Shown here: positions 14,364 through 49,599 of the stretch, in pieces | How positions within the stretch are numbered: the stretch's first letter is position 1 | Layout: the number at the start of each line of letters is the position of its first letter | DNA from: Hyunsoonleella ulvae | Lineage (GTDB): Bacteria; Bacteroidota; Bacteroidia; Flavobacteriales; Flavobacteriaceae | Assembly: GCF_016827605.1 (NCBI RefSeq) | Contig: NZ_JAEPJQ010000002.1 | Span: forward strand, 434,001 to 498,000 | DNA: 64,000 nucleotides | Direction: 5' to 3' | Made by a program: the position numbers and the translations under genes | Notes under the pieces: model-generated | The model's database searches: none | Told to the model about the DNA's origin: nothing | Seen by the model: only the letters and a program-made list of their open reading frames with translations

Positions 14364-14408
14364 CGAAAATATGATGCTTGTCAGATTTTTGCATCCTGTA
14401 CTATACTG
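14364..14408 (-). promoter_or_regulatory. Direct-repeat operator plus promoter of the NCS1 permease
   Basis: On the minus strand CAGTATAGTACAGGAT (14408-14393) is followed by 21 bases and then TATTTTCG (14371-14364), one mismatch from TAnnTTTG. The 16-base operator is identical to the one before the rhamnose operon (22892-22907), and the 21-base spacing is identical too. The operator takes the place of a -33 box, which suggests an activator. Confidence 0.7.
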
Positions 14409-14472
14409 TTTAACAAATACAGAAACCTACTTAAAAAGCGCATATAAAGATGAAGATAGTAAAAGCTAAGGA

Positions 14473-14517
14473 CATGTGTGTACAGGACAATTTTAATTCT
14501 GTAATAACGTATTTTGT
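14473..14517 (+). promoter_or_regulatory. Divergent copy of the direct-repeat operator before the esterase gene
   Basis: CATGTGTGTACAGGAC (14473-14488) matches the rhamnose-operon operator at 10 of 16 positions, including all of GTACAGGA. It is followed by exactly 21 bases and then TATTTTGT (14510-14517). The spacing agrees with the other copies, but the -7 box is weaker. Confidence 0.45.
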
Positions 14518-14569
14518 CTAACTTTAGTAAACCAGAAAATAATTTGTAAACTTTTAAAAGTACCTTAAA

Positions 14570-15346
14570 ATGAAAAAGTTAGTTTTTATAGTATTAACCT
14601 TCTTTCTCTTAACCAGTTTTAACCAAACCCCTAACATAGAAAAAACCTTAAACGCTATCAATGATGGGTTTAAGACTATGGAAGTAAAACTATTACAATG
14701 GCCAAAAGCATTACGGCCTGAATTAGGACAACTAAAAGACACGGCTTTTATTGCTTTTCCTAAAACGAAACCAAAACACAAAATACCACTTCTAATATCG
14801 CTTCATGGTGCTGGTGGAAGAGCTTGGTCGATCGAGGAACAACTTAAACGCTCTGCAAAAGTTAAAGGGCTTTCCCTTGCGGAATTAGCAGGAAAAGATC
14901 TGATATTGTTAGAACCCAATTCTTATGATAAGTGGGATCCTAACACGTTAAACATCATGCTAGATTATATCCTTGAACAGTATTCCCAAATAGATCAAAA
15001 GCGTATTTATGTTATGGGGCATAGTATGGGTGGTCGTGGCACTTGGGATTGGATACTACAATCTCCTGAACGTTTTGCAGCTGCTGCTCCTTGTGGATTT
15101 AGTGGTGTATCGGAAAATGATAACGTAGAAACACTTATCGCACTTCCTGTATTTGGTATGGTAGGTGGCGAAGATGGCAAAAACGTAGCTTCTGTAGAAA
15201 AAATGACCTCATTATTAAAAGCCGCAGGTAACAAAAATGTACAATACATAGCGTTTCCAGGGGCTAATCATCCTCAAGGCAATAAAAAAGTATTTAGTAA
15301 TATAACATGGATAGATTGGATGCTTAATTTTTCTTCTACGAATTAA
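14570..15346 (+). CDS. Secreted alpha/beta-hydrolase esterase (polyhydroxybutyrate depolymerase/peptidase-like)
   Basis: The 258-residue protein has a signal peptide (about 1-18) and an alpha/beta-hydrolase core: oxyanion-hole segment ISLHGAGGRAW (about 75-85), nucleophile elbow GHSMGGRGTW (about 148-157, Ser150), an acid candidate in GGEDGKN (about 202-208) and catalytic His in PGANHPQGN (about 229-237). It fits Esterase/LpqC-like carboxylesterases that often remove acyl groups from glycans. It is divergent from the NCS1 permease with a possible shared operator. Substrate unknown. Confidence 0.75.
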   Translation: MKKLVFIVLTFFLLTSFNQTPNIEKTLNAINDGFKTMEVKLLQWPKALRPELGQLKDTAFIAFPKTKPKHKIPLLISLHGAGGRAWSIEEQLKRSAKVKGLSLAELAGKDLILLEPNSYDKWDPNTLNIMLDYILEQYSQIDQKRIYVMGHSMGGRGTWDWILQSPERFAAAAPCGFSGVSENDNVETLIALPVFGMVGGEDGKNVASVEKMTSLLKAAGNKNVQYIAFPGANHPQGNKKVFSNITWIDWMLNFSSTN

Positions 15347-15372
15347 GCAAAACTCATACTAATTAAAAAACA

Positions 15373-15411
15373 AAAAACCCAACTAGAAAGTCAAATTTCA
15401 GCTGGGTTTTT
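15373..15411. terminator. Bidirectional terminator between esterase and lactate dehydrogenase genes
   Basis: AAAAACCCA (15373-15381) pairs with TGGGTTTTT (15403-15411), and an inner GAAA/TTTC pairing extends the hairpin. The two genes converge on it, so it can serve both. Confidence 0.85.
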
Positions 15412-15449
15412 AAACTATCAATCATTAATCTAGTATCGAATACCCAGAT

Positions 15450-16598
15450 TTATTTTATTAAGTGATTAGGAAAATCACTGGTGTTTTCACAGCATAACTG
15501 TTCCATAACCTGTTGTAATTCGGTTTTCAACAGAGAAATGGTATGGTTACCTCCTTTTTTACCTAAAGCTGATACGCCGTACATAAAAGAACGCCCCATA
15601 AACGTAAATTTAGCACCACTTGCCATAGCTCTAGCTACATCAGGACCAGAACGAACACCACTATCCATCATAACTTCTATTTGATCTCCGTATTTTTCTG
15701 CAATAGTAGATAATGGTTTTACTGTTGATTGCCCTGCATCAAGTTGACGTCCTCCGTGATTGGATACTATAATACCATCAAGTCCTAATCGGATAGCTTC
15801 TTCTGTATCATATTCTGAAGCTACACCTTTAAGGACTAGCTTACCTTTCCACATATCTCTAATTGGCTTAATCTTTTCTTCGTTTAAACGACCGCTAAAA
15901 GTTTGGTCCATAAACTTACCAAGTTGTTTTAAATCTAACCCTTTTGGCATATATGGTTTTAGAGTTTCAAAACTAGGAATACCATATTTTAAAGTTTGTA
16001 AACTCCAATGAGGATGTGTAAAACCTTGCAAAATATTACTTAATGTCATTTTAGGAGGCATTGCAAGACCATTTCTAATATCCCTTGGTCTGAAACCAAA
16101 TGTTGGCACATCACAAAGAATAACCAATACTGGGCATTCTGCAGCTTTTGCTCTGTTTATAATATCATCCCTAAGCGAATCTTCGGCAGGATGATATAAT
16201 TGAAACCAAGCCTTACCTTCTGTTAATTCACTTGCACGTTCTATACTGGTTGTAGTAACCGTACTTAATATAAAAGGTATATTATGCTCAAAGGCAGCCT
16301 TAGCCAATATTTCAGGAGAGTTAGGCCACATTAAACCTTGAAGACCTACAGGAGCAATTCCAAATGGCGCATCATACTCTACACCAAATAATTTGGTTTT
16401 TAATGATGAGCCATGGTGCTTCCTTAAATAGTTGGGCTTTAATTGCACCTCCCGTAATTCAGAAGTATTGCGAATTAAATTTACATCCTCATTGCAACCT
16501 CCATCCAGATATTCAAATGCAAATTTTGGTATCTTTTTTTGAGCCTTTTTCCTTAAATCATCTATTGATGGGTAACGTGTATCAAAACTTATTGCCAT
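15450..16598 (-). CDS. lldD: FMN-dependent L-lactate dehydrogenase (alpha-hydroxy-acid dehydrogenase family)
   Basis: The 382-residue protein matches the LldD/glycolate-oxidase family with a TIM barrel binding FMN. Visible are FAFEYLDGGCNED (about 26-38), FGIAPVGLQGLMWP (about 79-92), WFQLYHP (about 130-136), LVLKGVAS (about 255-262, the catalytic-barrel Lys), and the signature SNHGGRQLDAG (about 280-290, active-site His). The product, pyruvate, lets the cell use the L-lactate formed from L-lactaldehyde in rhamnose breakdown. It is the last gene of the rhamnose operon, 4 bases after the tandem aldolase gene. Confidence 0.85.
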   Translation of the reverse strand: MAISFDTRYPSIDDLRKKAQKKIPKFAFEYLDGGCNEDVNLIRNTSELREVQLKPNYLRKHHGSSLKTKLFGVEYDAPFGIAPVGLQGLMWPNSPEILAKAAFEHNIPFILSTVTTTSIERASELTEGKAWFQLYHPAEDSLRDDIINRAKAAECPVLVILCDVPTFGFRPRDIRNGLAMPPKMTLSNILQGFTHPHWSLQTLKYGIPSFETLKPYMPKGLDLKQLGKFMDQTFSGRLNEEKIKPIRDMWKGKLVLKGVASEYDTEEAIRLGLDGIIVSNHGGRQLDAGQSTVKPLSTIAEKYGDQIEVMMDSGVRSGPDVARAMASGAKFTFMGRSFMYGVSALGKKGGNHTISLLKTELQQVMEQLCCENTSDFPNHLIK

Positions 16599-16602
16599 AA
16601 TA

Positions 16603-17892
16603 TTATGCTAAAAATTTCTTTCTTAAATCCTCTACCTGCTCGTCATTTATCGGTACCATATCTCCTAATGAACTACCTAGAACAATAGATTTTGCACTAA
16701 ATTCTGCTACTTCCAAATAATCAAAAGTTTGCAGTAGCTTATCTCCTGTTATAATAACTGAATCGTTTTCTATAATCAATGCTGTTGGACAATTATCTAC
16801 TATTTCAGAGTTATTATTTTTTCTAAAATGATGTCCATATTTTACAAAATTTATATCCTGTAAAAATATCCAGCTTTCAGGAATAGTTCTTACATTTAAA
16901 TATTCTCCTGTAACACCAAATGCCATAAGATATGGGGATTGGGTCATGATAATAGAGTTAACCTTGGGATTTCTATTGTAAATTTCTTGGTGAATCCAAG
17001 TAGCCCTACTTGGTATTTTTCCTGCTTCCCGCTTACCTCCTTTTATCTGTACGATATCATCCAAACCTAAATCCCACCTATCCACATCTGTTGGCGTGAT
17101 TAAAAAATCATTGTCTTTCCAACGCATAGATACCGTTCCATAGGAACCTATCATTAAACCTTGTTGACAGGAACGTTGCACTATTTTACATATCTCTAAA
17201 CGCTTTTCTACTTCATCTGATGTATAATCAGTGCTGTCCATCTCTGGCAAAACACCAGTTGCTTGGGATTCGAACTCTTCTATTTGCGCATCTGTTAAAT
17301 ATTTTGGTGTTCCAATTTGCGAACCGTATACTATTGTTCTTGCACAAAACTCTAAAGCTTCAAAACGATCATATGCATCTGTTAAATCACTTCCTCCTAA
17401 AACAGTACCATGGTTTTCCATAATTACCGCCTTGTACCCTTTTTTAAACTCATCTGCAATTACATCTCCCAAATCTTCACTTCCAGGTAATCTATAATCA
17501 GCGTAACCTATTGGACCACATATATGCTTTGCTTGTGATATAATATTTGTGTTTGGTATTTGCCGCACTATACTAAATGATACCAGTGCTGGTGGATGCG
17601 CATGAATTACCGATTTTATATCTGGTCTTGCCTCATAAATTGCTTTATGAAACGGAAATTCTGAAGATGGTTTATGCTTTCCAATTATAGTACCATCTTT
17701 TTTAACACATATGATGTCTGACGCCCTCAAAGAACCTTTATCTATTGCTGAAGGGGTTACCCAAATATCTCCTTGCTCATCTATAATAGATATGTTACCA
17801 CCAGAAGTTGTGGTCATACCTCTTTTATATACTCTACTGATGATTTCTGTGATTTGATCTCTTGGGTGGATCAATTTTGTGTTTTTTGACAT
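16603..17892 (-). CDS. Tandem class II aldolase/adducin-domain protein with decayed second domain
   Basis: The 429-residue protein is an internal duplication of the class II aldolase fold. The first copy (about 8-200) has the zinc motifs HAHP (97-100) and ENHG (159-162) and the SGGNIS phosphate loop (30-35). In the second copy (about 228-425) the matching positions read TQSP (317-320) and ENDS, so the metal-binding His residues are gone. One active site per chain is expected. The family includes L-fuculose- and L-rhamnulose-phosphate aldolases, but the operon already codes an aldolase at 20728, so the substrate may be different. Confidence 0.75.
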   Translation of the reverse strand: MSKNTKLIHPRDQITEIISRVYKRGMTTTSGGNISIIDEQGDIWVTPSAIDKGSLRASDIICVKKDGTIIGKHKPSSEFPFHKAIYEARPDIKSVIHAHPPALVSFSIVRQIPNTNIISQAKHICGPIGYADYRLPGSEDLGDVIADEFKKGYKAVIMENHGTVLGGSDLTDAYDRFEALEFCARTIVYGSQIGTPKYLTDAQIEEFESQATGVLPEMDSTDYTSDEVEKRLEICKIVQRSCQQGLMIGSYGTVSMRWKDNDFLITPTDVDRWDLGLDDIVQIKGGKREAGKIPSRATWIHQEIYNRNPKVNSIIMTQSPYLMAFGVTGEYLNVRTIPESWIFLQDINFVKYGHHFRKNNNSEIVDNCPTALIIENDSVIITGDKLLQTFDYLEVAEFSAKSIVLGSSLGDMVPINDEQVEDLRKKFLA

Positions 17893-17953
17893 TGTGTTGC
17901 GATTTGGAAATATATTCTTTAATTACTCTTTAGTATAATACTTTATACTTTGG

Positions 17954-19330
17954 TTACCCATTAACTATAAAAGGCACATGCTTTTTAAGCGCATAATTTT
18001 GTTTTAAAAATTTAGAATTCAACTTTTTGTCTGAAATTGAAATAGCCGCTCCTAGCGCTGAACCTAAAGACGCATCAGTAGTGCTTAACTTTTTATCATT
18101 AAAATTATGAGACAGTAATTTTATATAAATATCATTATTGCTAAAACCTCCGTCTACATATATCCGAGCTATTTTATCGGTTCCCAATGCTTCTTTAATA
18201 CACTTAATTTGTAGAAGTACAAGCTCTGTCATTAATTGGTGATAAGCATGTTCATACTTATTATAAAGAAAAGCTGTTTTCTCTGGCATGTTTTCATCTA
18301 CGAGACTTTCCCATTTAAAACAATTCTTGAAGTCCTTCTTAATCTCCAAATAAGTATCATAATCAAAATCCACATTACGATGATACTCATCATCTACACC
18401 AAAGTGCTTGTTGAGTTTCTCTACCTGTAATTTATATTCATTCCCTAAAAATACGCGTGTTGCCTTAACAGGTTTCCCATTAATTCGCATGTAATTAAGG
18501 GTATCACTGTTATAATCTTCATTTACAGTATTTTCGTCCGTAAATGGATTAAACACTATACTCCAAGTGCCTGTTGATACTAAAACAAACTTTTTCTTTA
18601 TACTTCTTACATAAGGCAATAAAGCTGCCGAACTATCATGAATACCAACACCAATTTTTATTCTACTGCCATTGTAATTCATGTTTATACTTGTTTCAGT
18701 TGAAACTATTGGGGGCAGTATCTTATAAATACCTTCTTTGTAAACCCAATCGTGATAATCCTTCTTACCAAAATCCCATAGTGCTGTATGGCATCCAATA
18801 CTAGTGTATTCACTTAACGGAATCCCTGTAAATATGTAACTTAGATATTGCGGTAAATGCAAAGAGTATTTTATTTTAGCATAAACATCAGGCTGTGTAT
18901 ACTTTAACCAATATAACTGTAACCCAGAGTTAAGCATACTTAGGTCAACACATCCTGTAGTTTTTAAAAATTCTTCACGTGGTCCATACTTCTCGAAAAA
19001 AGCATCTATTATTGACTTTGGTAAGGGTTTTGTGTAGTTATAAAGCGGTGTTAATGGGTTTCCATTTTCATCTATATGTACAAAACTAGCACCATAGGTA
19101 GAAAAATTGATTGCTTCAACATCAAACTCCTTTTTTTCCAATATACGGTCGAAAACTTGTTTTAACCATTTTTTTAAAGCAGGAAGGTTTTCTGTTGGGT
19201 GCCCATCTTCATCTTCTACTTCTTCAAACGAAATATATTCTTTGTGAACTTCTTTGAAGCGTTTGTCAAAAAGGAAAAACTTTTTATTGGTTTTACCTAT
19301 ATCAAAAACCGCTGTAACTTTTTGCTTCAT
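17954..19330 (-). CDS. rhaB: FGGY-family sugar kinase, probable rhamnulokinase
   Basis: The 458-residue protein has FGGY-kinase features: N-terminal phosphate loop VFDIGKTNKKFFLFD (about 9-23), an ASFVHID segment near 82, KFVLVSTGTWSIVFNP (about 241-256) and the C-terminal RIYVDGGFSNNDIYIKLLSH (about 385-404), followed by a SLGSALGAA helix. It would phosphorylate L-rhamnulose with ATP to give L-rhamnulose 1-phosphate. The position between rhamnose isomerase (8 bases upstream) and the aldolase gene is the main reason for the substrate call. It is more divergent than E. coli RhaB. Confidence 0.75.
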   Translation of the reverse strand: MKQKVTAVFDIGKTNKKFFLFDKRFKEVHKEYISFEEVEDEDGHPTENLPALKKWLKQVFDRILEKKEFDVEAINFSTYGASFVHIDENGNPLTPLYNYTKPLPKSIIDAFFEKYGPREEFLKTTGCVDLSMLNSGLQLYWLKYTQPDVYAKIKYSLHLPQYLSYIFTGIPLSEYTSIGCHTALWDFGKKDYHDWVYKEGIYKILPPIVSTETSINMNYNGSRIKIGVGIHDSSAALLPYVRSIKKKFVLVSTGTWSIVFNPFTDENTVNEDYNSDTLNYMRINGKPVKATRVFLGNEYKLQVEKLNKHFGVDDEYHRNVDFDYDTYLEIKKDFKNCFKWESLVDENMPEKTAFLYNKYEHAYHQLMTELVLLQIKCIKEALGTDKIARIYVDGGFSNNDIYIKLLSHNFNDKKLSTTDASLGSALGAAISISDKKLNSKFLKQNYALKKHVPFIVNG

Positions 19331-19338
19331 TTTTATGG

Positions 19339-20619
19339 CTATAACCCTGTTGCTACTGTATTTTTACCTCTTTCAGTAATTAAAGTATCTCTCACTCCTA
19401 AATCACGATAAGCGTTTATTGGACTTAGTGCTCCTCCTGTATTTAAACGTGCTTTTTCTAATAAAGGTCTAACATCTGTTCTATAAGCACCTTGTAAAAT
19501 TTCTTGACATTTTACAACGTCATTATCCAACTGTGCTGCTCTAAGAGCATTTTGGTCTATTAACATTGCTTTTGCATAAGCTTCTTGAATTGCTTCTAGA
19601 GATTGTATTAAATCTTCTAGAGGATCTTTAACGTTGTGGCTTGCATCAATCATCCATGCTAAATCAGGATTTTGTGGATTGTTTTGCATGCCATATACCA
19701 ATTCGTTAAAAATTAAGAATAACGCATAAGGCTTAATACTTCCTACTGTTAAATCGTCGTCCCCATATTTGCTATCGTTAAAATGGAACCCTCCTAATTT
19801 ACCTTTTAATTGTAGGATAGATACAATTTGCTCGATGTTAGAGTTAGGTAAATGATGTCCTAGGTCTACAAGAGTATATGCTTTATCGCCACAACCGTTA
19901 GCTAACATTAAAGATGCTCCCCAATCTTGTATTACTGTACTGTAAAAGTTTGGTTCGTATGGCTTGTATTCTACTAATAGGCTCCAATCATCTGGGAGCC
20001 CCTTGTAGATATCAATTAAACTGTCCTGCGTATTCTGAAAAGCTGTTTGAAAATTATTTTGTCCAGGGAAACAAGATCCGTCTGCCAACCAAACAGTTAA
20101 AGCTTTGGATCCTAGTTTATCTCCAATTTTAATAACATCTAAGTTATGTTGTATAGCTTGTTCTCTTACTGCTTTACTTGTATTACTTAAAGAACCATAC
20201 TTATAAGTTTCAGCAGCATCTTTTTGATCTTGGAATGTATTGGAGTTTACAGCATCGAACTTAATATTTAAAGCATCTGCCTTTTCTTTTATCGCTGCAT
20301 AATCTGATGGGATATCCCAAGGAATATGCAATGATACAGCACCTGCTGTTTGCGTTAAGCTGTGTAGAATACCTATATCATCAATTTTTTGTTCTAGACT
20401 TGAAGGTTCTCCATAAAATGAAAAACGACCAAAACGTGTTCCGCCCGCACCTAAAGCCCAACTTGGTATAGCAACTTGAAAGTCTGATAGTTTTGACACA
20501 ATTTTAGAAACATCATGCCCCGATTTACTTAATTTATTTGCCAAAAAATCATAATTCTCGTCATGACTTTTTATACTCTTTTTATTGTTTTCTAATATTT
20601 GTTCTTGCTGAATCTTCAT
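19339..20619 (-). CDS. rhaI: L-rhamnose isomerase, RhaI (Pseudomonas stutzeri) type
   Basis: The 426-residue protein fits the L-rhamnose isomerase of the xylose-isomerase-like TIM-barrel superfamily. Recognisable are FQVAIPSWALGAGGTRFGRF (about 47-66), SLHIPWDIPSDY (about 96-107), LLVEYKPYEPNFYST (about 215-229, metal-binding Glu), VDLGHHLP (about 252-259), GGFHFNDSKYGDDDL (about 276-290) and WMIDASHNVKDPLE (about 320-333). Asp and His residues in these blocks fit the two-metal site. It interconverts L-rhamnose and L-rhamnulose in the cytoplasm. The hairpin upstream (20644-20684) separates it from the aldolase-dehydrogenase gene. Confidence 0.85.
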   Translation of the reverse strand: MKIQQEQILENNKKSIKSHDENYDFLANKLSKSGHDVSKIVSKLSDFQVAIPSWALGAGGTRFGRFSFYGEPSSLEQKIDDIGILHSLTQTAGAVSLHIPWDIPSDYAAIKEKADALNIKFDAVNSNTFQDQKDAAETYKYGSLSNTSKAVREQAIQHNLDVIKIGDKLGSKALTVWLADGSCFPGQNNFQTAFQNTQDSLIDIYKGLPDDWSLLVEYKPYEPNFYSTVIQDWGASLMLANGCGDKAYTLVDLGHHLPNSNIEQIVSILQLKGKLGGFHFNDSKYGDDDLTVGSIKPYALFLIFNELVYGMQNNPQNPDLAWMIDASHNVKDPLEDLIQSLEAIQEAYAKAMLIDQNALRAAQLDNDVVKCQEILQGAYRTDVRPLLEKARLNTGGALSPINAYRDLGVRDTLITERGKNTVATGL

Positions 20620-20643
20620 GTTTTTTTACCATTTAAAAGAAAA

Positions 20644-20684
20644 GAAACTCCCATAAAATTACAAGAATTTTAATGGAAGTTTTC
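20644..20684 (-). terminator. Imperfect hairpin with T-rich tail inside the rhamnose operon
   Basis: Between the aldolase-dehydrogenase stop and rhaI, GAAACTCCCATAAAATT (20644-20660) pairs imperfectly with the segment 20666-20684. On the minus strand it is followed by a T-rich run. It may be a leaky terminator or an mRNA-stabilising stem that sets different levels of the two parts of the operon. Confidence 0.5.
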
Positions 20685-20727
20685 TTTTTTAACTAAACTA
20701 ATCAAATTACTATTACTTTATTTTTAT

Positions 20728-22833
20728 CTATCTGACGAAGGCATTTGCCATTCCACCATCAACATTAATAATGTTTCCTGTAGACTTGTCTAGAATACCT
20801 ACCAGAGAAAATACGCCATTTGCAATATCGTCTGGAGTAATGATTTCATGCAACAGATTTCGTTTTGCATAAAATGCTGGTAACTCCTCTACTGTAATTC
20901 CATTTGCTTTTGCTCTTCCTTCAGCCCAAGCACCTTCCCATATTTTACTTCCTACAATAACACCATCTGGGTTTACTGTATTTACTCTTACTTTATCTTT
21001 TGCTAACTCAGCAGCTAATAAACGTACCATGTGCTGTTGTGCAGCTTTTGCTGTCCCATATGCCACGTTATTTGGCCCTGCTACTAATCCATTTTTACTT
21101 GCAATAGCGATGTAATCTCCACCTAAACCTTGCTTACGAACTATAGCTGCAAATTGCTTGGCTAAATCAAACTGTCCTTTTACTAAGATGTTTTGTAAAA
21201 TGTTCCAGTCTTTGTCTGTAGTATCTTCTAATGGCTTAGAAATTGCTAATCCTGCACTATGTACAATAATGTCTACACCTCCAAATTCTAAAACAGCTTT
21301 TTTATAGGCACTCTCGATAGATTCTGTGCTTGTTACATCACATACTGCATATGTAGAAACATCTCTCTTGTAAGTTGCGTTTGCTTCAATTAAAGCTTCT
21401 TCATTAATATCAGTTAAAACCACATTTGCACCTTCTGCAGCCAGCTTATCTGCAATAGCTTTACCTATTCCTCCACCTGCTCCTGTTACTAAAGCTACTT
21501 TCCTTGATAATGGTTTTTCCTTGGGCATACGTTGTAATTTTGCCTCTTCTAATAACCAGTACTCGATATTGAATGCTTCTTGTCTTGGTAAAGACGTGTA
21601 AGATGTTATAGCTTCTGCACCACGCATTACATTAATAGCATTAATGTAGAACTCACTGGCTACACGTGTAGTTTGCTTGTTTTTTGCAAAACTAAACATA
21701 CCAACACCTGGATATATAATAATTACTGGGTTAGCATCTCGAATAGCTGGGCTATTGTCTACTTTACAAGTGTTATAATAGTCTTCGTATTCTTTACGGT
21801 AAGCTTCAAACGCTGGCTCTAATTTCTTTAAGATTGCATCTGCATCAGATAAATCTTCATTCTTATCTAACTCTAATACTAATGGTTGTATTTTAGTTCT
21901 TAAGAAGTGGTCTGGACAAGATGTTCCTAGAGGTGCTAAACGCTCTAAATCGTTACTGTTGATGTACTCCATTACAACATCGGTATCGGAGAAATGACCA
22001 ATCATTCTGTTTTCTGAAGAACATAAACCTCTTAATAAAGGCATTAACTGCGCTGCCTTTTCTAAACGCTCTTCTTTTGGTAAACTCTCTACTTTTTGAC
22101 CTCCAAATACAGGGCCTCCTGCTTCTATTTTCTTAGTGATATAGTCTGAAGCCATTTCGATTACTTCCAAACTGTTTATGTAACACTCGTAGGATGTATC
22201 TCCCCAAGTAAATAAACCGTGGCTTCCTAATACGATACCTCTTATTCCTGGGTTATCAGCTAAACACTTTTCTAACTGTAATCCTAAATCGAAACCTGGC
22301 TTTTGCCATGGCACCCATCCCATAGTGTCTCCCCAAATTTCTTTGGTAACTTTTTCGCTATCCTCAGCTGCCGCAACTGCAATGAGTGCATCTGGGTGTA
22401 AGTGATCGATGTGTGCAAATGGTAACAACCCGTGTAATGGTGTGTCGATAGATGGTGCTTTACTATCTAAATCGTAAATACAATGGTTAAACAAACCAAC
22501 CATACGATCTTCGTCATGAAGTCCTTGATATACGTTCTTTAAGTCTCTTAATCTTCCTGTATACAAGCCAGCTATACCAGAACGTGTTAATGTACCAATA
22601 TCTCCTCCTGAACCTTTAACCCACATTACCTCAACATCTTCATTAGTTAGTGGATCTTTTTCAATTGTCTTACAACTTGTATTACCGCCTCCGTAATTGG
22701 TAATTCTTAAATCAGCACCTAAAATATTAGAACGGTATAAGAATAATTCAACTTGATTGTCTCCTAACGCTGCGGCTTTTTTTTCATCCCACAGATAATC
22801 TACGTATTTAAAGGTCTTGGTTATGTTTTCCAT
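20728..22833 (-). CDS. Bifunctional rhamnulose-1-phosphate aldolase / L-lactaldehyde dehydrogenase (SDR) fusion
   Basis: The 701-residue protein joins two enzymes. Residues about 15-430 form a class II aldolase: VKGSGGDIGTL (about 73-83), zinc motif FAHIDHLHPDA (about 139-149) and GSHGLFTWG (about 203-211). Residues about 447-700 form a short-chain dehydrogenase: VTGAGGGIG (about 449-457) for NAD(P), a serine in AIASKNG, and YGTAK (YxxxK) as catalytic pair. It would split L-rhamnulose 1-phosphate into DHAP and L-lactaldehyde and oxidise the latter to L-lactate. It is the first gene of the rhamnose operon, behind the direct-repeat operator. Confidence 0.9.
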   Translation of the reverse strand: MENITKTFKYVDYLWDEKKAAALGDNQVELFLYRSNILGADLRITNYGGGNTSCKTIEKDPLTNEDVEVMWVKGSGGDIGTLTRSGIAGLYTGRLRDLKNVYQGLHDEDRMVGLFNHCIYDLDSKAPSIDTPLHGLLPFAHIDHLHPDALIAVAAAEDSEKVTKEIWGDTMGWVPWQKPGFDLGLQLEKCLADNPGIRGIVLGSHGLFTWGDTSYECYINSLEVIEMASDYITKKIEAGGPVFGGQKVESLPKEERLEKAAQLMPLLRGLCSSENRMIGHFSDTDVVMEYINSNDLERLAPLGTSCPDHFLRTKIQPLVLELDKNEDLSDADAILKKLEPAFEAYRKEYEDYYNTCKVDNSPAIRDANPVIIIYPGVGMFSFAKNKQTTRVASEFYINAINVMRGAEAITSYTSLPRQEAFNIEYWLLEEAKLQRMPKEKPLSRKVALVTGAGGGIGKAIADKLAAEGANVVLTDINEEALIEANATYKRDVSTYAVCDVTSTESIESAYKKAVLEFGGVDIIVHSAGLAISKPLEDTTDKDWNILQNILVKGQFDLAKQFAAIVRKQGLGGDYIAIASKNGLVAGPNNVAYGTAKAAQQHMVRLLAAELAKDKVRVNTVNPDGVIVGSKIWEGAWAEGRAKANGITVEELPAFYAKRNLLHEIITPDDIANGVFSLVGILDKSTGNIINVDGGMANAFVR

Positions 22834-22862
22834 TTTCTAGAATTAATATAATGTTTGTTATT

Positions 22863-22907
22863 CAAAAATAAATTAGCGACCAATGATTTCTATCCTGTAC
22901 TATACTG
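22863..22907 (-). promoter_or_regulatory. Direct-repeat operator plus promoter of the rhamnose operon
   Basis: On the minus strand CAGTATAGTACAGGAT (22907-22892) is followed by 21 bases and a perfect -7 box TATTTTTG (22870-22863). Two CAGnA half-sites start 10 bases apart, one helical turn. There is no -33 box, so the promoter is probably activator-dependent. The leader is about 23 bases. The rest of the gap 22911-23150 shows nothing clear. Confidence 0.75.
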
Positions 22908-23199: not shown

Positions 23200-23240
23200 G
23201 AGAATAATCAGAATAATTCTTAAAATTACCAGAGAATCTT

Positions 23241-24287
23241 ATGGATATATATAAGTTTATAAATATTGATGAAAATTCGAGGGTGCCCAAATATCAACAA
23301 ATTGTTGATTCTGTAATAACCAATATATCAAATGGAAATTTTAGCATAGACCAAAAAATACCTTCTATCAATAGGTTTAGTGAGGAATTTTATTTATCCA
23401 GAGATACTGTAGAGAAAGCATATAGTATACTTAAAGAGCGGAATATTATTACCTCAATTAGGGGCAAAGGGTTTTATATATCGAGAACAAAATTAATTTC
23501 TAAAGTCAATATTTTATTTCTTATAAATAAGCTTAGTAATTACAAGTTAAGAACATACAATCATTTTATAAATAACATAGGCGCCAACTCGCATACCGTT
23601 TTACATGTCTATCACTGTGATGAAACTCTATTTTTAAATCTTTTAGAGAAGAATAAATCTGCTTTTGATTATTACGTTATCATGCCTCATTTTAAAACCG
23701 AACATTTAAAGCATGTGAGCTTTACTGAAAAGGCTTTAAAAATATTAAACAAAATCCCCAAAGATAAATTAGTTGTTCTTGACAATGTTAAGCCCAACCT
23801 TAAAGGAGTGTTGGGGGAAATATATCAAGATTTCGAAAATGATATTTATGAAGCTCTAAGCAAAGTAATCAATAAGATTAAAAAGTACAAAAAAGTTATT
23901 CTCACTTATCCTGACAAATCGGTTTATCCTTATCCGAGACGAATTTTGCATGGCTTTAGAAAGTTTTGTGTTGAACACAAATTAGATTTTGAAATATTAG
24001 ACAAAGTCTATGAAGACATGATTCTAAAAAAGGGAGATTTATTTATAACCATAGAGGAATCTGATTTGGTAAATTTAGTAAAACAGGTAAGAGAAGACGA
24101 GTATACTTTAGGTAGTGATATTGGAATTATTTCTTATAACGAAACCCAACTAAAAGAATTACTTGGTATCACGGTAGTTTCTACTGATTTTAAAATTATG
24201 GGAGAAACCGCTGCTGAAACTATTTTAAATAAAAAGAAGACTTCTTTAAAAGTTCCATTTCATATTATAGAGAGAGACTCTCTTTAG
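23241..24287 (+). CDS. GntR-family regulator with LacI-like sensor domain, copy 1
   Basis: The 348-residue protein has an N-terminal GntR winged helix (about 10-80): VPKYQQIVDSV, KIPSINRFSEEFYLSRDTVEKAYSIL and GKGFYIS. From about residue 90 it has a periplasmic-binding-protein-like sensor domain with VNILFLINKLS, YDYYVIMPH-like and DIGIISYNETQLKELLGITVVSTDF segments, as in LacI-type sugar sensors. It is divergent from the rhamnose operon, so a rhamnose-related signal is plausible. Copy 2 at 53912 is about half identical in the parts I compared. Confidence 0.85.
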   Translation: MDIYKFINIDENSRVPKYQQIVDSVITNISNGNFSIDQKIPSINRFSEEFYLSRDTVEKAYSILKERNIITSIRGKGFYISRTKLISKVNILFLINKLSNYKLRTYNHFINNIGANSHTVLHVYHCDETLFLNLLEKNKSAFDYYVIMPHFKTEHLKHVSFTEKALKILNKIPKDKLVVLDNVKPNLKGVLGEIYQDFENDIYEALSKVINKIKKYKKVILTYPDKSVYPYPRRILHGFRKFCVEHKLDFEILDKVYEDMILKKGDLFITIEESDLVNLVKQVREDEYTLGSDIGIISYNETQLKELLGITVVSTDFKIMGETAAETILNKKKTSLKVPFHIIERDSL

Positions 24288-26846: not shown

Positions 26847-26872
26847 TTGCTGTATTATTTTATTAATTCTTT

Positions 26873-29749
26873 TTACTCACATTTTATCAGTTTAATAGGT
26901 CCCTCGAGACCTACTGATGTTAGTGGTTCATTTTTGTATCTATTTGTCCATCTATTTACAGCTGGGATATCTAAAGATAAACAATAGTTTGACAGAACTG
27001 TGGTATAGTGAATTTCAATAGCGTTTTCGCCTTCCTCTAGAACATCAGATACAGGATACATCGCTCTTCCATACCAACGTTTATCGACTTTTTTACCGTT
27101 TATGTAAAGTTCTGTAATGCCTTCATTCACATTACCTAAACCTAAATGTGTAATAGCGTCTTCAACAGTAATTTTAGTCTTATAGATAAGAGTTCCAGCA
27201 AACGTATTTTGCGTTTTATCTTTTGATGCGCCAAAATCCTGTAAAGCATTCATATTCCAGGTAAAACTTTTACCATCAACCCTTTTGCCTTCAACCGTCC
27301 AATTCGTATTTATTTCTTTAGAAAACGTCAACTCGGTTTTCTTATCCATAGATTTTATCTCTGGTTGTACATCTTCAAATATTAATAATAAAGATTGAAG
27401 TGGTTGTAAATTGATTTGTAATTCGCTTGAAGTTTTTTCAAAATAATAAGGCTTGCGCTCGCCTGTTTCAGGATTCCATAGATAAGGATATTTATTTTGA
27501 AATGGAAATATCGCTGTAAAACTTGAAGTCTCGTAACGATTGATATTTGTAAAGAAATAAATGATTTCTTTTGAAGTCGTTTGATGAATTTGAAACACGT
27601 TCTTGCTAGGGTTACTAATTTCTACATCTGTCGAAAGTTCAGATTTCTGTAAAATTTCCTTCGTCCAAGAGAATAGTTCCTTAATCGAATTTGGTTGTTT
27701 TACACTGATTATTGATGATGCATAATTACTTTGAATATCAGTCATCATATCTGAAACAATTGCATCATTGGACTTATAATTGTTATACCCTAAAGATTTA
27801 TCAGGCAACCCATCAATAACAACAATCTTACCACCAGAAGCCACAAATTCTTTCAATGTTTTAGCCACTTCAACATCTACTGATTGCAAATTGGCTAAGA
27901 CTAGCAATTTAAAATTCATATCGCCATACGATAGAACACCATTGTTTACCTCAGCATTAGCCAACACATTTTGGTTAATATAATCGCAAGAATATCCTAA
28001 CTGACTTATAGGTTCCCACAATCTGTATAAATACTCTGGTTCCAAATGAAATGGTGCTCTTGCCAAACCTTCATCTCCCCATAAATCGGAAGTTGGTCCT
28101 AAAATGGCAATAGATTTTTTAGCTTGGGAATTTTGAAACACATAAGACAACCGTGCATTGTAATCTACCCAATTGCTTAAATGTTTCCACCATGGATTTT
28201 GCTCACTAAAATAAGCGCCGTAACGAATCCAACCAGGAAAGGGGGCGCCTTTAGGGGAATAATTATACCCATGTAAAACAGAGTGATTGATACCCGTAAT
28301 AAAATTCATATCATCATGCTGTTTAATCTCTTCCAGTGTGGTTTTAAAAACACCATTGGTATTGGTCATCGCCTCGCAACTGGTTATTTTTTTTCCTGTT
28401 AAATGTGCTGCGGAAGATGCATATAAATTCCAAATTTTATCGCCTCTATGTTGGCTCCATTTTAAATCTTCATCTTTCATTTCCGCAACATAAATCCAGT
28501 TATTACTTTCAGGAATATCAGGTATCATGTAACCATCCATCATCCCCATTAAAAATGGGGTGCCATAGGCTTGATAGCGACATAAAATCCCATTTTCTTC
28601 ACAGAAGGCTTTATAGGTTTTGGTAAAATTCTCCAGAAAGGTTTCAACCAACATGTCGTTATAATCAAAACGCACGCGCTTTATTTCCGTTTTAAAATCC
28701 TCTGAAAACCCTTCTAAATATGTGCTTTTAGAATATTCTCTATGCCCCTCATAGAACACAAAAGCCAACCAAGGTTCTAATTTATAACCATAAGTTTTAA
28801 AAAATAATTCTGAAAAACCATCGCTCCAATTAGCACCGGAGACCTCTATACTATCGCAAAACAGTGCTCGGATTAATTGGTTTAAAGGTATTCCTGAACG
28901 CTCAGAAATTTTTTTCATCCTGTTTAAATAGGCCAAAGTCATTTCCTTTTTATAATGGTCTATAACAGGACCCGCACCTCCCGGAGCTCCTAAAGTAACA
29001 TCCCTAAAATCTTGTTGTAATAGTTGATAAGATAGCAAATAATTACCTTTACCTTCAATAGTGTATTTAATGTTACCAGCCTCATCTAAATGATCTTTAA
29101 GATTAATAATTTCACTTGGAGAATTGCAATTTAAAGGCATCAGAGAAACTCCTGCAAGACTCAATTTTGTACGGGCGCTGTTATGTCTCTCTTGGCGGTT
29201 CTTTTTATACTTCTTTTTGTAAAATGATATTAAATAGTCCTCACTTACCTCAATTACATCACCATTTTTATAAGAAATAACATCTGTCACCATCCGTTGA
29301 CAGGTTTCATCCTGAGTTAGAAACTCTCCCCCAAAAGGCCATCCAGTCCCTGCAATAATATCAGCAACCATACCTAAATCTTGCGTTTTTTTACAAGCAT
29401 GTACCACAAGGTCTACCCATGCATCACTCATCCAGACCAACGATTTTTCATCTGTTGACGTCTCATTAGGCATGGCAATAGGATTTATTTCAACACCACC
29501 AAAACCAACACTTTTTAAAGATTCAAGCTGTCTGTCTAATTCCTCCCTTTTAATTTTGTTGCCATTCCACCACCAACGCACAAAAGGTCTTGCCTCGGCA
29601 GGCGGATTTTGAAAACCTGAGAACAAATCTTGAGCCAAAGCTTCAGATTGATTGGATTTAGTTTCATTGTTTGAATTACAACTTAAACATAAGATTAAGA
29701 GTGCAATGCGTAAGGCTATTCTACTAAAAAAGAGCGTGAAATCTTTCAT
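26873..29749 (-). CDS. GH106-like alpha-L-rhamnosidase, lipoprotein
   Basis: The 958-residue protein begins with a lipoprotein signal (lipobox ending at about Cys24). It carries the GH106 pattern from residue 45: PFVRWWWNGNKIKREELDRQ and LKSVGFGGVEINP (about 86-98), GTGWPFGGEFL (about 158-168) and WIYVAEMKDEDL in the barrel. A C-terminal beta-sandwich with NVNEGITELYING and an EGENAIEIHYT strand follows, as in other GH106 proteins. The enzyme would release L-rhamnose outside the cytoplasm. It has its own promoter with the direct-repeat operator at 29812-29856, and the lyase candidate follows 26 bases downstream. Confidence 0.8.
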   Translation of the reverse strand: MKDFTLFFSRIALRIALLILCLSCNSNNETKSNQSEALAQDLFSGFQNPPAEARPFVRWWWNGNKIKREELDRQLESLKSVGFGGVEINPIAMPNETSTDEKSLVWMSDAWVDLVVHACKKTQDLGMVADIIAGTGWPFGGEFLTQDETCQRMVTDVISYKNGDVIEVSEDYLISFYKKKYKKNRQERHNSARTKLSLAGVSLMPLNCNSPSEIINLKDHLDEAGNIKYTIEGKGNYLLSYQLLQQDFRDVTLGAPGGAGPVIDHYKKEMTLAYLNRMKKISERSGIPLNQLIRALFCDSIEVSGANWSDGFSELFFKTYGYKLEPWLAFVFYEGHREYSKSTYLEGFSEDFKTEIKRVRFDYNDMLVETFLENFTKTYKAFCEENGILCRYQAYGTPFLMGMMDGYMIPDIPESNNWIYVAEMKDEDLKWSQHRGDKIWNLYASSAAHLTGKKITSCEAMTNTNGVFKTTLEEIKQHDDMNFITGINHSVLHGYNYSPKGAPFPGWIRYGAYFSEQNPWWKHLSNWVDYNARLSYVFQNSQAKKSIAILGPTSDLWGDEGLARAPFHLEPEYLYRLWEPISQLGYSCDYINQNVLANAEVNNGVLSYGDMNFKLLVLANLQSVDVEVAKTLKEFVASGGKIVVIDGLPDKSLGYNNYKSNDAIVSDMMTDIQSNYASSIISVKQPNSIKELFSWTKEILQKSELSTDVEISNPSKNVFQIHQTTSKEIIYFFTNINRYETSSFTAIFPFQNKYPYLWNPETGERKPYYFEKTSSELQINLQPLQSLLLIFEDVQPEIKSMDKKTELTFSKEINTNWTVEGKRVDGKSFTWNMNALQDFGASKDKTQNTFAGTLIYKTKITVEDAITHLGLGNVNEGITELYINGKKVDKRWYGRAMYPVSDVLEEGENAIEIHYTTVLSNYCLSLDIPAVNRWTNRYKNEPLTSVGLEGPIKLIKCE

Positions 29750-29811: not shown

Positions 29812-29856
29812 ACAAAATAGTTATTACTGCTATATAAACCATCCTGAGCTATCTTG
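29812..29856 (-). promoter_or_regulatory. Direct-repeat operator plus promoter before the first GH106 gene
   Basis: On the minus strand CAAGATAGCTCAGGAT (29856-29841) is followed by exactly 21 bases and TATTTTGT (29819-29812). The half-sites CAAGA and CAGGA are 10 bases apart. The -7 box is the same imperfect form as before the esterase gene. The operator touches the stop of the upstream DUF1961 gene, so this is an internal promoter of the locus. Confidence 0.6.
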
Positions 29857-41858: not shown

Positions 41859-41861
41859 TGC

Positions 41862-46390: not shown

Positions 46391-46408
46391 TGTTCTCTTA
46401 AATCAATA

Positions 46409-46492
46409 TTACTTACTGTCATTATTACTACTAAACTTAAATAATAAAACATTTAGCACAAGTAAAACACCTATTATGTATACAACTGTCAT
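46409..46492 (-). CDS. Possible 27-residue single-helix membrane peptide
   Basis: A minus-strand frame from ATG (46490-46492) to TAA (46409-46411) codes MTVVYIIGVLLVLNVLLF and then a short polar tail KFSSNNDSK. It is one membrane helix with a positive start to the tail. It lies alone between the GH2 stop (10 bases upstream) and the lyase start (18 bases downstream), in the operon direction. Such tiny proteins are common in transporter loci of flavobacteria, but at this length it may be chance. Confidence 0.3.
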   Translation of the reverse strand: MTVVYIIGVLLVLNVLLFKFSSNNDSK

Positions 46493-46502
46493 CAAATTTC
46501 AT

Positions 46503-49500
46503 CTAATCTATAAATAGTTCATCTATATATGGCCCACTCTTTCCTGATGTTTCAAGTCTTATATTATTGGCTCCTGCTTTTAAGGTAATAATAGTAGGTA
46601 CAAATTTCCATTCCTTTTCCCAACCTCCTGTGGGTTTGAACTCTAATGTTCTTATGTATTCATCATTAACATAAAGTTTCATAGGGTGTAGTTTTCCTTC
46701 ATTATTGTGCATATATCTGAAACGTATGCTATAATCTCCTTGTTCGCCATCATTTTCTTGGTACCAAGTGATAGCACCTTCCCCATTTTGAAATTCTACA
46801 AAACCACTTCCCTTATACCGACGTGCCTTTGAACTCGCTTTTGCTGTTCCTTCAAGGCTACCATCTTCTGCAGAAATATTAACGCCTCTTCCTATCCACA
46901 TATCGGCAGAGTGCTCATTTCCCCAAAACAAACCTTCGTTTTTACCAAAAGTCTCTTCCATGGTTAAAACAACGGTTCCATTTTGTTTTACTATCGCCTT
47001 TACGGTAGTACCATCATCAATGTTAAACGGTTTGGAATATTTTTTTCCGTTAGAATCAGGATTACTTCCATCTGTGGTAAATAATATTTCTAACTCAGGA
47101 AATTTTGAGTTTTCTCCAATGAGACCAATTTGCTGAGCTTCAATATTGATTAAATTAGAAATGTATAAACTCTTATCTCCTAAAATAGCTCCTGTAATAA
47201 TTGACGCTTGTTGTGCATTTGGTTGTTCTTTTAAAAACAGTCGCGTTTTCCCGAAGAACATTTTCCTAAAATCTGATTTGGTACGACTAGTAGGGTCTAT
47301 AGGGTCTCCATTCTCCATAGAAACCTTGGTTAAATCGCCTTTAATGTTATAATACACTCTATTTTCTCCGTATGGATATAGATTATTCGAATTATCTGTG
47401 GCTTGCGAGGTTATAATGAAGTTTGCAGGAAAACCATCTTCAGCTAATAATTTTTCTACACTTGTAAGTAGTTTTGAAGGATGCTCACTTGTGCTAAAAT
47501 GTGTTCTCTTAACTTCTTTACCCTTTATGTAAGCCACTGCTTCAATAGTACCTGCCTCATATGGCACCATCCACTCACATTGCATTTCATTCCAAATGGT
47601 ACCTGGCTTATCTTTTCCGAGGGACTCTCCGTTTAAAAACAACTCTACTTCATCAGCATTAGAATACACCCAAACTGGAATAACAGTACCTTTTTGCATT
47701 CTAGGGTGTGTCCAATGTGGCAACATATGAACCATTGGTGCTGAAGTCCACTGGCTTTTATAGAAGTAAAATAGATCCTTTTTAAAACCAGCAACATCAA
47801 GCGCTCCTCCCATAAACAAGTTAAAAGGTAACCCTCCATGAACTAAACCTGCTTCTCCGTAATAATCGAAACCTGTCCAGCGGAAATGACCACTATGCCA
47901 TGGCGTATCACGCATTACTTCCCAATATTTTCTTGCAGACACACGTACTGTAGCATTGTCATAAGAGGAGTTAAATCGTTGTTTTCTATTTCTCCAATCT
48001 TTTGGGTTTAAACCTTCATAAAAAAAGATTTCTTTTTCTGTAAGATTTGGTAGTTCATATGTTCCGGGCAACTCATTATCCCTCCACCATGTTTGTGTTC
48101 TATAGTACCCTCTTGTTTGCCATGTATGAGGTGCTTCTGTGGAAATAAATGGTTTGTCAAAATGCTTATTTTCTATAAATGTTTTAGTTTCAGAACCACC
48201 GTTAACGCCTTGTATATCCATATCTTCTGGGTTCCCAGCTCCTGAGGTAAACAATCTGGTAGGGTCTAAACTCTTGCCGAACTTAACCAATTCTGGTGCC
48301 ACATCATTATGGGTTTCATTACCCAAACTCCACACAAAAATACTTGGGTGGTTTCGGTCTCGGGTTATCCATTCTTTCACGTCGCGTTGCCACCACTCAT
48401 CAAAGGCTTGTTTTCCATAATCTTCAGGTGCTTTTTTATGCCATCCATCAAAAATTTCGTCCATAACCAATAACCCAATTTCGTCACAGATATCGTAAAA
48501 CATAGGTGGTGTTGGATTGTGTGACGGACGTATGGCATTAATCCCCATATCTTTTAAAGATTGTAATTTCCAACGCAACATAGGCTTTGTCCAAGCACCA
48601 CCAACAGGCCCTCCTTCCCAATGTTCGCAAACACCTTTCAGTTTTATATTTTCGCCATTTAGCCAAAAGCCTGTATCGGTTTTCCATTCAACCGTTTTAA
48701 ATCCGAAAGTGGTTTCAACCTCATCTATTACTTTTTTGCCATCCAAAATTTTAGTAACTGCTTTGTATACATTTGGTGTCTCTGGGCTCCACAATTTTGG
48801 GTTTTCCACTTCTAATTGATATGTTGGCTTAGTGATATTTAATTTCTCACATTTATTTACCAACTCTTTTCCCTGAGGAGAGAATAATTTCACTTCATAC
48901 TTTAAACCTTTTAGTGCTCCATTAATCTCTGCATCAATTGCTACGCTTGCCTTTTCTTTTGAAATTGAAGGTGTTTTAATAAAAATAGAATTGGGTTTAA
49001 AATGAGTTTGATTTACTTCTATTAATTGTACTTGCGCATAAATACCACAAGGATGATACCATCGTGCCGATGGTTCTAAACTATTATCAACCCTTACTGA
49101 AACTATATTTTTTCCTTCTTTTAGGTATTTTGAAATATCATATCTAAAACTAATATATCCATAAGGTCTTTTGCCTAGATAATTACCGTTAACCCAAACT
49201 TCGCTATTCATATATACGCCATCAAAATTGATATAGGTAATTTTTGAAAGACTTCCTTTTTTAATTTCAAAATACTTTCTATACCAACCAATTCCCCCAT
49301 CATGATAACCACCGCCCTGTCCTTGGTCTCCACCTTTACGAACACCTTTTTCAAAAGACCAATCATGTGGTACATTTAGGGTTTTCCAGGACGAATCATC
49401 ATAATTTTCTTTTGAAAATGATGTATTGTCTTCCAATATGAATTTCCAATCATTATTAAAGTTTGTTGCAGTTCTTTGAGAGTAAATTGATGCAGAACTT

Positions 49501-49535
49501 AAAGCTAAAAATAAAGCTATGAGTATATTTTTCAT
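46503..49535 (-). CDS. Secreted GH2 glycosidase (beta-galactosidase/glucuronidase family)
   Basis: The 1010-residue protein has a signal peptide (1-19) and the GH2 order: sugar-binding jelly roll (about 22-175, NVPHDWSFEKG at 54-64), immunoglobulin-like part (about 180-285), TIM barrel (about 290-590) with RPSHNPTPPMFYDICDEIG (about 336-354). Glu407 in SLGNET is the acid/base, and Glu467 in FISTEAPH is the nucleophile candidate. The rest (about 600-1010) holds DUF4982-like and malectin or CBM-like beta modules, the last with GAITWYQENDGEQGDYSIRF. Gene start lies 20 bases after the -7 box of the direct-repeat promoter. Sugar specificity is open. Confidence 0.85.
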   Translation of the reverse strand: MKNILIALFLALSSASIYSQRTATNFNNDWKFILEDNTSFSKENYDDSSWKTLNVPHDWSFEKGVRKGGDQGQGGGYHDGGIGWYRKYFEIKKGSLSKITYINFDGVYMNSEVWVNGNYLGKRPYGYISFRYDISKYLKEGKNIVSVRVDNSLEPSARWYHPCGIYAQVQLIEVNQTHFKPNSIFIKTPSISKEKASVAIDAEINGALKGLKYEVKLFSPQGKELVNKCEKLNITKPTYQLEVENPKLWSPETPNVYKAVTKILDGKKVIDEVETTFGFKTVEWKTDTGFWLNGENIKLKGVCEHWEGGPVGGAWTKPMLRWKLQSLKDMGINAIRPSHNPTPPMFYDICDEIGLLVMDEIFDGWHKKAPEDYGKQAFDEWWQRDVKEWITRDRNHPSIFVWSLGNETHNDVAPELVKFGKSLDPTRLFTSGAGNPEDMDIQGVNGGSETKTFIENKHFDKPFISTEAPHTWQTRGYYRTQTWWRDNELPGTYELPNLTEKEIFFYEGLNPKDWRNRKQRFNSSYDNATVRVSARKYWEVMRDTPWHSGHFRWTGFDYYGEAGLVHGGLPFNLFMGGALDVAGFKKDLFYFYKSQWTSAPMVHMLPHWTHPRMQKGTVIPVWVYSNADEVELFLNGESLGKDKPGTIWNEMQCEWMVPYEAGTIEAVAYIKGKEVKRTHFSTSEHPSKLLTSVEKLLAEDGFPANFIITSQATDNSNNLYPYGENRVYYNIKGDLTKVSMENGDPIDPTSRTKSDFRKMFFGKTRLFLKEQPNAQQASIITGAILGDKSLYISNLINIEAQQIGLIGENSKFPELEILFTTDGSNPDSNGKKYSKPFNIDDGTTVKAIVKQNGTVVLTMEETFGKNEGLFWGNEHSADMWIGRGVNISAEDGSLEGTAKASSKARRYKGSGFVEFQNGEGAITWYQENDGEQGDYSIRFRYMHNNEGKLHPMKLYVNDEYIRTLEFKPTGGWEKEWKFVPTIITLKAGANNIRLETSGKSGPYIDELFID

Positions 49536-49554
49536 TAGTTAGTTTTGTTACTAA

Positions 49555-49599
49555 CAAACTTAATTTTTTAAACTCTAAATGTAATCCTGTTGTGTCCTG
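49555..49599 (-). promoter_or_regulatory. Direct-repeat operator plus promoter of the GH2 operon
   Basis: On the minus strand CAGGACACAACAGGAT (49599-49584) is followed by exactly 21 bases and a perfect -7 box TAAGTTTG (49562-49555). This copy is the clearest direct repeat: CAGGA-N5-CAGGA. The start codon of the GH2 gene is 20 bases further. The HTCS gene lies just upstream, so its product is the natural candidate to bind here. Confidence 0.75.

Follow-up and report, generated by a model that had tools for sequence, protein, structure and literature searches.

A direct-repeat operator joins rhamnose catabolism to extracellular glycan breakdown in Hyunsoonleella ulvae, with a GntR/LacI-type protein as its probable activator

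The promoter element described here lies in a 64 kb stretch of the genome of the flavobacterium Hyunsoonleella ulvae (C16:434001-498000, in the following the window; 4.06 Mb genome in 23 contigs) and consists of a 10-bp direct repeat that is followed, mostly after 21 bases, by a -7 box. This operator precedes the rhamnose catabolic (rha) operon as well as genes for the extracellular breakdown of a rhamnose-containing glycan, and it is conserved in the rhaD promoters of other genomes. It is probably bound by the protein encoded at 23241-24287, a chimera of a GntR-type winged helix-turn-helix (HTH) and a LacI-like domain which, judging from the placement of the sites, would act as a class II activator in response to rhamnose or a derivative of it in the cytoplasm.

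The operator and its distance from the -7 box

The sequence-only reading of the window had named four promoters with this arrangement, two of them with an identical operator, and a weaker fifth copy. All four are present letter for letter on the minus strand, with 21 bases from CAGGAT to the box in each, and CAGTATAGTACAGGAT indeed occurs both at the rha operon and at the permease gene. Sites were scored with a matrix made from the rhaD promoters of other genomes (rha-only matrix) or with a combined matrix, which includes sites at PL28 (ulvan lyase) loci besides the rha sites.

22863-22907, minus strand: rha operon site, operator CAGTATAGTACAGGAT (22892-22907), 21-base spacer, -7 box TATTTTTG (22863-22870), 74 bp from the rhaD ATG; rha-only score 39.4, the highest of all sites found
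14364-14408, minus strand: NCS1-like permease site, operator CAGTATAGTACAGGAT, 21 bases, box TATTTTCG (one mismatch from TAnnTTTG); score 37.2
49555-49599, minus strand: GH2 site, operator CAGGACACAACAGGAT, 21 bases, box TAAGTTTG; score 17.6
29812-29856, minus strand: GH106 site before the GH106 gene 26873-29749, operator CAAGATAGCTCAGGAT, 21 bases, box TATTTTGT (two mismatches from TAnnTTTG); score 13.5 (rha-only) or 21.1 (combined)
14473-14517, plus strand: weak candidate upstream of the esterase-like gene 14570-15346, not accepted as a site; 1.4 bits (rhaD matrix) or 8.8 (combined)

The letters of the fifth copy, at the esterase-like gene, are likewise present, and it was rejected as an established site because of its weak scores, which fall in the range of control matches (seven of at least 8 by the combined matrix in 400 kb of control sequence).

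A scan of genome contigs with the rhaD protein of the window, which shares 97% identity with its counterpart in Hyunsoonleella pacifica, yielded 80 rhaD loci, and exclusion of two without upstream DNA (L069, L078) left 78 promoters. In 76 of these 78 promoters from other genomes we find CRGKAYAGTACAGGAYRS, 21 bases and TAnnTTTG, and the motif is thus kept in orthologous promoters; the two without it (L052, L108) were left out of the rha-only matrix. The consensus of the 76 sites reads C R G K A Y A G T A C A G G A Y R S, with C, G and A at positions 11, 13 and 15 in every one of them, and the set spans Flavobacteriaceae, Chryseobacterium/Epilithonimonas and Lewinella/Saprospiraceae. In nine loci from Chryseobacterium, Epilithonimonas and a Weeksellaceae metagenome-assembled genome (L092-L096, L099, L102-L104) the rhaD operator contains CGGGAT, and eight of these have an extra site before a gene that is SusC-like by eye.

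When the box was searched freely, the best one lay 21 bases away in 74 of the 76 rhaD promoters, whereas the spacing totals at 25 operators of the own genome, with ties shared, came to 13.4 at 21 bases and 4.4 at 20 bases. The fixed distance of 21 bases claimed from the sequence therefore holds strictly at rhaD, and is sometimes 20 at glycan genes.

The half-sites stand head to tail. Identity between them at a lag of 10 was 0.78 in 31 PL28 sites (runner-up 0.50, at lag 5) and 0.63 in the 76 rha sites (0.58 at lag 5), and no inverted-repeat centre rose above 0.39 in either set. A palindromic reading, GTAC-A-GTAC, was rejected as a common rule since PL28 sites keep 1.4 of its 4 pairs (rha sites 2.9 of 4) and the 10-bp direct repeat is found in both classes; the direct repeat at PL28 sites likewise does not match an AraR-like palindrome with a GT..AC core. 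The -7 box of Bacteroidota sigma-A promoters lies at -12 to -5 (PMC9723704). With the TAnnTTTG box placed there, the 18-mer operator spans about -49 to -32, is centred at -40.5 and replaces the -33 box at a fixed distance. A centre near -40.5 is typical of class II activators, and the 10-bp direct repeat centred there makes class II activation most likely. A direct repeat with a period of one helical turn, standing where a -33 box would be expected, and an activator-type placement had both been proposed in the sequence-only reading and are borne out.

The regulon in the own genome

At thresholds of 6, 8, 10, 12, 14 and 16 the rha-only matrix found 30, 28, 26, 25, 23 and 23 sites in 264 kb of the own genome, compared with 6, 3, 1, 1, 1 and 0 in the 400 kb control and 3, 2, 1, 0, 0 and 0 in reversed sequence; four shuffles gave no site of at least 12, and the window alone holds four such sites. 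The 264 kb comprise the window and stretches around matches to the operator 16-mer, so that their site density is biased, while the control consists of evenly spaced stretches of the own genome, whatever their gene content. Seven of the 23 sites of at least 16 are absent from the genome-wide list of 16-mer matches (C16:510636, 539069, 559094, 569959 and 588550, C20:169949 and the GH2 site). Loose matches to the operator occur at chance level, with up to three mismatches allowed: 34 in the window against 38.6 expected and, for the 16-mer, 39 in the genome against 50 in the reversed control. Counting them was discarded as uninformative, and the signal lies in the operator together with its fixed spacing and its conservation. 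The matrix scan that had been proposed, run on about 16% of the genome (window plus 600 kb) besides loci around matches and on related loci, thus returned more than 20 sites with rhamnose and ulvan targets, and repeat plus spacing occur well above chance (23 sites of at least 16 against none in the control).

None of these 23 sites falls within a reading frame of more than 150 residues, and at 22 of them a start codon follows 64-217 bp downstream. Besides the targets in the window itself, Pfam analysis of 20 downstream proteins recognised two SusC-like proteins (with CarbopepD_reg_2 and Plug domains), two ulvan lyases of family PL28, two sulfatases, a sulfatase-GH78 fusion, GH39, GH3 and BNR_4 proteins, two GH78 proteins (one cut by the end of the stretch, its site scoring only 11.2), two 3-keto-disaccharide hydrolases, an extracytoplasmic function (ECF) sigma factor and a weak alginate-lyase-like match; one protein each has a secretion tail only, PKD domains only or no family. 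Outside the 264 kb, contig C1 holds a further PL28 gene of the own genome that has a site (L196), the third in all. The targets, comprising rhamnose genes, PL28, GH78 and GH106 enzymes, sulfatases and SusC-like genes, form a rhamnose/ulvan regulon. The gene of the sulfatase-GH78 fusion lies downstream of an operator on own contig C20 (L123:4142-7672), and its product resembles P36, a sulfatase plus GH78 of the Formosa agariphila polysaccharide utilization locus (PUL) H, while the ulvan backbone consists of rhamnose-3-sulfate with uronic acid or xylose (PMC8511951). From the target gene set, the P36-like fusion and this backbone, the sugar targeted is very likely ulvan.

Two further genes behind sites deserve mention. 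The ECF sigma gene (L117:10275-10844, own C16 at about 540 kb) has its site (21.8) 217 bp upstream and could add a second tier to the regulon. An odd and possibly false target is a Wzy_C/TPR gene (L121:5817-7727; own C16, site 351822) with the box TTTTTTTA.

Ulvan, GH2, GH106 and permease loci in other genomes

PL28 is present in 12 of 99 genomes, the own included. We took 30 loci of 44 matches from these 12 genomes (three are from the own genome, some overlap, and the site sometimes precedes a neighbour of the PL28 gene), and 28 of the 30 have a site by the rha-only matrix at a cut-off of 9. As a control, 30 GH16 loci were taken, among the matches listed, from the 12 PL28 genomes and G018 and scored by the combined matrix only; at equal cut-off this matrix gives 28 of 30 PL28 loci against 1 of 30 GH16 loci, a comparison that is partly circular because PL28 sites went into it. 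Sites also stand before 9 of 11 GH2 orthologues (at least 77% identity) and 4 of 6 GH106 orthologues (at least 60%). Shared sites in the own genome and at the PL28 loci thus uphold the idea that one operator joins rhamnose catabolism to extracellular glycan breakdown.

Permeases follow the gene arrangement. From the 53 rhaD loci with the permease family, 21 permeases were picked by sequence pattern. Six have a site, every one with an upstream gap of at least 115 bp, and among the 15 without one 13 have a gap of at most 74 bp, the two exceptions being 116 and 141 bp. Permeases detached from the rha genes have their own site, and closely following ones are without.

The candidate regulator

The gene 23241-24287, divergent from the rha operon, encodes an N-terminal GntR winged HTH (PF00392, 2.2e-11; GntR chains of the PDB also matched) and a C-terminal LacI/periplasmic-binding-protein-like domain (PF13377, Peripla_BP_3, 5.5e-6). 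The structure model (predicted local distance difference test 91.5, predicted template modelling score 0.72) places the C-terminal part close to LacI, RbsR and CcpA by Foldseek. In a census of reading frames of at least 150 residues at the 80 rhaD loci, with unlabelled clusters assigned by eye, rhaD was found at 80, the isomerase at 76, the kinase at 74, the regulator at 63, the FMN dehydrogenase at 58 and the permease at 53; no other transcription factor was recognised among families present at more than 10 of these loci. The regulator relatives at rhaD loci share 38-98% identity. In 17 genomes the regulator is not near rhaD, and 16 of these hold a relative of at least 59% elsewhere, one with an internal stop codon; L108 has neither regulator nor motif. 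Across 99 genomes a regulator of at least 50% identity occurs, among the matches listed, in 17 of the 20 with a full or nearly full rhaD and in none of the 79 others (Fisher 2e-16, ignoring kinship), and the three remaining rhaD genomes hold 37-41% relatives. In L038, L040, L044, L070, L086 and L113 the regulator gene is itself preceded by sites, at distances of 110-386 bp, which suggests autoregulation in some species.

Regulator and operator co-vary. In a table of 58 loci (five of the 63 regulators have gaps in the recognition helix and were left out), K at residue 59 goes with G at operator base 14 in 54 of 54 cases, and VR at residues 58-59 with A in 4 of 4, so that a change from EK to VR in the helix accompanies one from CAGGAY to CAGAAY in the operator. 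In the tree the four VR regulators make up a single, fully supported clade, and the co-variation therefore counts as one event. Two 41% relatives agree with it: G048 combines an EK helix with CAGGAT, and G065 an IVR helix with CAGAAT. CAGAAY half-sites together with a VR helix occur in L083, L088, L089, L110 and G065 (L272), and these genomes could be used as a specificity swap. Two sites of VR loci read CAGAAC-N4-CAGAAC, which would fit the same helix reading both half-sites in one direction; the first halves of the other VR sites are less regular.

The own genome holds four members of the regulator family (100, 55, 40 and 34% identity), and at least two members of at least 50% occur in 10 of 12 PL28 genomes. 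G073 has one full-length member, and sites at its rhaD, PL28 and GH2 loci (L251, L191, L198, L278); G021 has one member of at least 50%, and sites at the same three kinds of loci (L247, L189, L202, L277). A single protein is thus able to serve both classes of site, and a split of labour between paralogues is possible in other genomes.

Proposed mechanism and alternative explanations

From these data we infer DNA binding, direction of control and ligand of the regulator as follows. The operator CAGTATAGTACAGGATAG would be the binding site of the 23241-24287 protein, and the paralogue 53912-54952 might use it as well. The LacI-like domain of the 23241-24287 protein may sense cytoplasmic rhamnose or an early intermediate of its catabolism, and a dimer would occupy the half-sites CRGKAY and CAGGAY, which are arranged head to tail at a distance of 10 bp on the same helix face. 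With its centre near -40.5, where the -33 box would otherwise lie, this dimer would recruit sigma-A RNA polymerase (class II activation), and a single cytoplasmic signal would switch on the uptake and catabolism of rhamnose along with ulvan lyases, rhamnosidases, sulfatases and SusC-like transporters. The more far-reaching form of this proposal, in which a little-known monosaccharide sensor of GntR-HTH/LacI-like type is the class II activator and master switch of a whole rhamnose/ulvan stimulon, with over 20 promoters spread across three contigs, we consider an even call.

Several observations weigh against activation by this protein. GntR proteins mostly bind palindromes, and a partial inverted repeat, GTAC/GTAC, is present in rha sites but not in PL28 sites. 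In L052 a regulator of 70% identity occurs without a motif at rhaD, which breaks a simple rule; G052, with a 37% relative, has no close regulator and no site was found in it. The genomes of the co-occurrence profile are related, 10 of 17 belonging to one genus, and the co-variation is a single evolutionary event, with CAGGAT retained at one site of the VR genome L083 and the site of G065 lying elsewhere in its rha cluster, with none at rhaD itself. A spacing of 20 bases fits better at 4 of the 25 own-genome operators, the site is missing at 2 of 11 GH2 and 2 of 6 GH106 orthologues, and a Wzy_C protein, off-theme and behind a good-scoring site with a poor box, is among the 20 downstream proteins.

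The sequence-only reading had assigned the sites to the hybrid two-component system (HTCS) encoded at 49648-53727 or to another AraC-family protein, a type to which direct repeats that are spaced by one helical turn and take over the position of the -33 box are suited. An AraC monomer covers about 17 bp, and the HTCS gene adjoins the GH2 target. This assignment is not supported: the rha-adjacent protein is of GntR-HTH plus Peripla_BP_3 type and not AraC, the families that recur at rha loci include no recognised AraC gene, the HTCS was matched in its C-terminal part at 5 of 80 rhaD loci and relatives of at least 50% identity in 2 of 16 genomes from rha loci (among the matches listed), and in the Chryseobacterium genomes of L095 and L103 the best matches span kinase and receiver only. 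The HTCS thus does not co-occur with the operator, a result that covers the HTCS of the window, other AraC proteins not having been searched. Published HTCS motifs moreover have repeats about 21 bp apart (PMC3878776), whereas here conservation is strong only in positions 1-18 upstream of the box, with a period of 10 and no conserved second operator unit further upstream in rhaD promoters. Control of all targets by an AraC-type protein is therefore very improbable; the HTCS is most likely not the binder of the operator and probably has other targets. An origin by chance, or as a general promoter feature of an AT-rich genome, would agree with the loose matches at chance level and is already refuted by the controls, with next to no probability left to it: no site of at least 16 in the 400 kb control and none of at least 12 in shuffles, 28 of 30 PL28 against 1 of 30 GH16 loci, and an operator kept over Flavobacteriaceae, Weeksellaceae and Lewinella/Saprospiraceae.

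The same chimera could instead repress and be released by the sugar. A GntR-family repressor of alginate use reportedly exists in Zobellia, and AraR of Bacillus subtilis has the same domain layout. AraR is a repressor (PMC4218819). We regard repression as unlikely, because an operator near -40.5 that occupies the -33 position with near-constant spacing in more than 100 promoters is typical of an activator and unneeded for a repressor. Less improbable, if still doubtful, is that two regulators share the sites, the rha-linked one acting on GTAC-type rha sites and the paralogue on CAGGAT-repeat ulvan sites, perhaps with another sugar. In its favour, the logos of rha and PL28 sites differ and most PL28 genomes have two or more close members, yet G073 and G021 manage both site types with a single such member, and the recognition helices are nearly identical. 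Such a division would be a refinement compatible with activation by the GntR/LacI chimera, which we retain as the best explanation.

Genes of the window

The genes concerned are as follows.

15450-22833, minus strand: rhamnose catabolic genes, made up of the next five
20728-22833, minus strand: rhaD/EW
19339-20619, minus strand: isomerase
17954-19330, minus strand: kinase
16603-17892, minus strand: class II aldolase
15450-16598, minus strand: FMN dehydrogenase
12914-14299, minus strand: NCS1-like permease, family scores weak (43 and 36 bits)
23241-24287, plus strand: regulator candidate
26873-29749, minus strand: GH106 alpha-L-rhamnosidase, target gene
46503-49535, minus strand: GH2 target gene, first of a closely spaced run down to 29858
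49648-53727, minus strand: HTCS
53912-54952, minus strand: regulator paralogue, 54-55% identity, recognition helix SRDTVERAY

The permease, whose family is present at 53 of 80 rha loci, is probably a rhamnose transporter. The run led by GH2 also holds two more GH106 genes, sulfatases and a BNR_4 protein.

Implications and comparison with known systems

The operator gives a readable promoter code for rhamnose and ulvan use in marine flavobacteria, points to a probable regulator and could serve in tools as a rhamnose-responsive promoter. It also makes the decision to degrade ulvan testable, as a choice between a sensor of oligosaccharides outside the cell and a sensor of a monosaccharide inside. 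If the proposal is correct, the stimulon covers ulvan lyases, SusC-like genes and an ECF sigma gene, and the end-product sugar rather than an oligosaccharide-sensing HTCS would control extracellular ulvan degradation across Flavobacteriia, with the rhamnose part of the control extending to Lewinella/Saprospiraceae. In the full-text literature searched, outside of which lie most subscription papers and RegPrecise, we found no report of the operator or the regulator.

The sensor domain of AraR from B. subtilis is LacI-like. AraR has the same domain order as the 23241-24287 protein, with a GntR HTH (its DNA-binding domain, 4egy, matched at 8e-11 over profile positions 14-80), and likewise controls a sugar regulon. 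It differs as a repressor on the palindrome At(T/A)tGTaCGTAcaa(A/T)T (PMC4218819), whereas a 10-bp direct repeat at an activator position is found here.

MocR-type proteins carry an aminotransferase-like domain, and the FadR and HutC types other sensor domains. NanR, FarR, NagQ and MocR-type regulators resemble the candidate in placing a GntR HTH on head-to-tail repeats, several of the MocR type being activators, and differ in the sequence of these repeats (PMC4494728, PMC5320631).

The known regulators RhaR and RhaS, of the AraC, DeoR and LacI families, also control rhamnose operons, and the motifs of DeoR-type RhaR are direct repeats of 10-11 bp (PMC3870299). Neither 'GntR' nor 'flavo' occurs in that survey, and the candidate would be a further type of rhamnose regulator beside the AraC, DeoR and LacI ones that it lists. 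Bacteroides RhaR differs in being of AraC type, with motif repeats about 21 bp apart (PMC3870299, PMC3878776) and a single target operon (PMC3878776), compared with more than 20 promoters here. The HTCS-controlled PULs of Bacteroides are alike in that glycan loci with SusC-like genes are controlled; they differ in periplasmic sensing and in repeats about 21 bp apart (PMC3878776), while Pfam and the structure model show only a GntR HTH and a LacI-like domain in the 23241-24287 protein (no membrane-helix prediction was made). A single monosaccharide signal for the use of both polymer and monomer is described in Bacteroides thetaiotaomicron, where it is fructose (PMC5061871).

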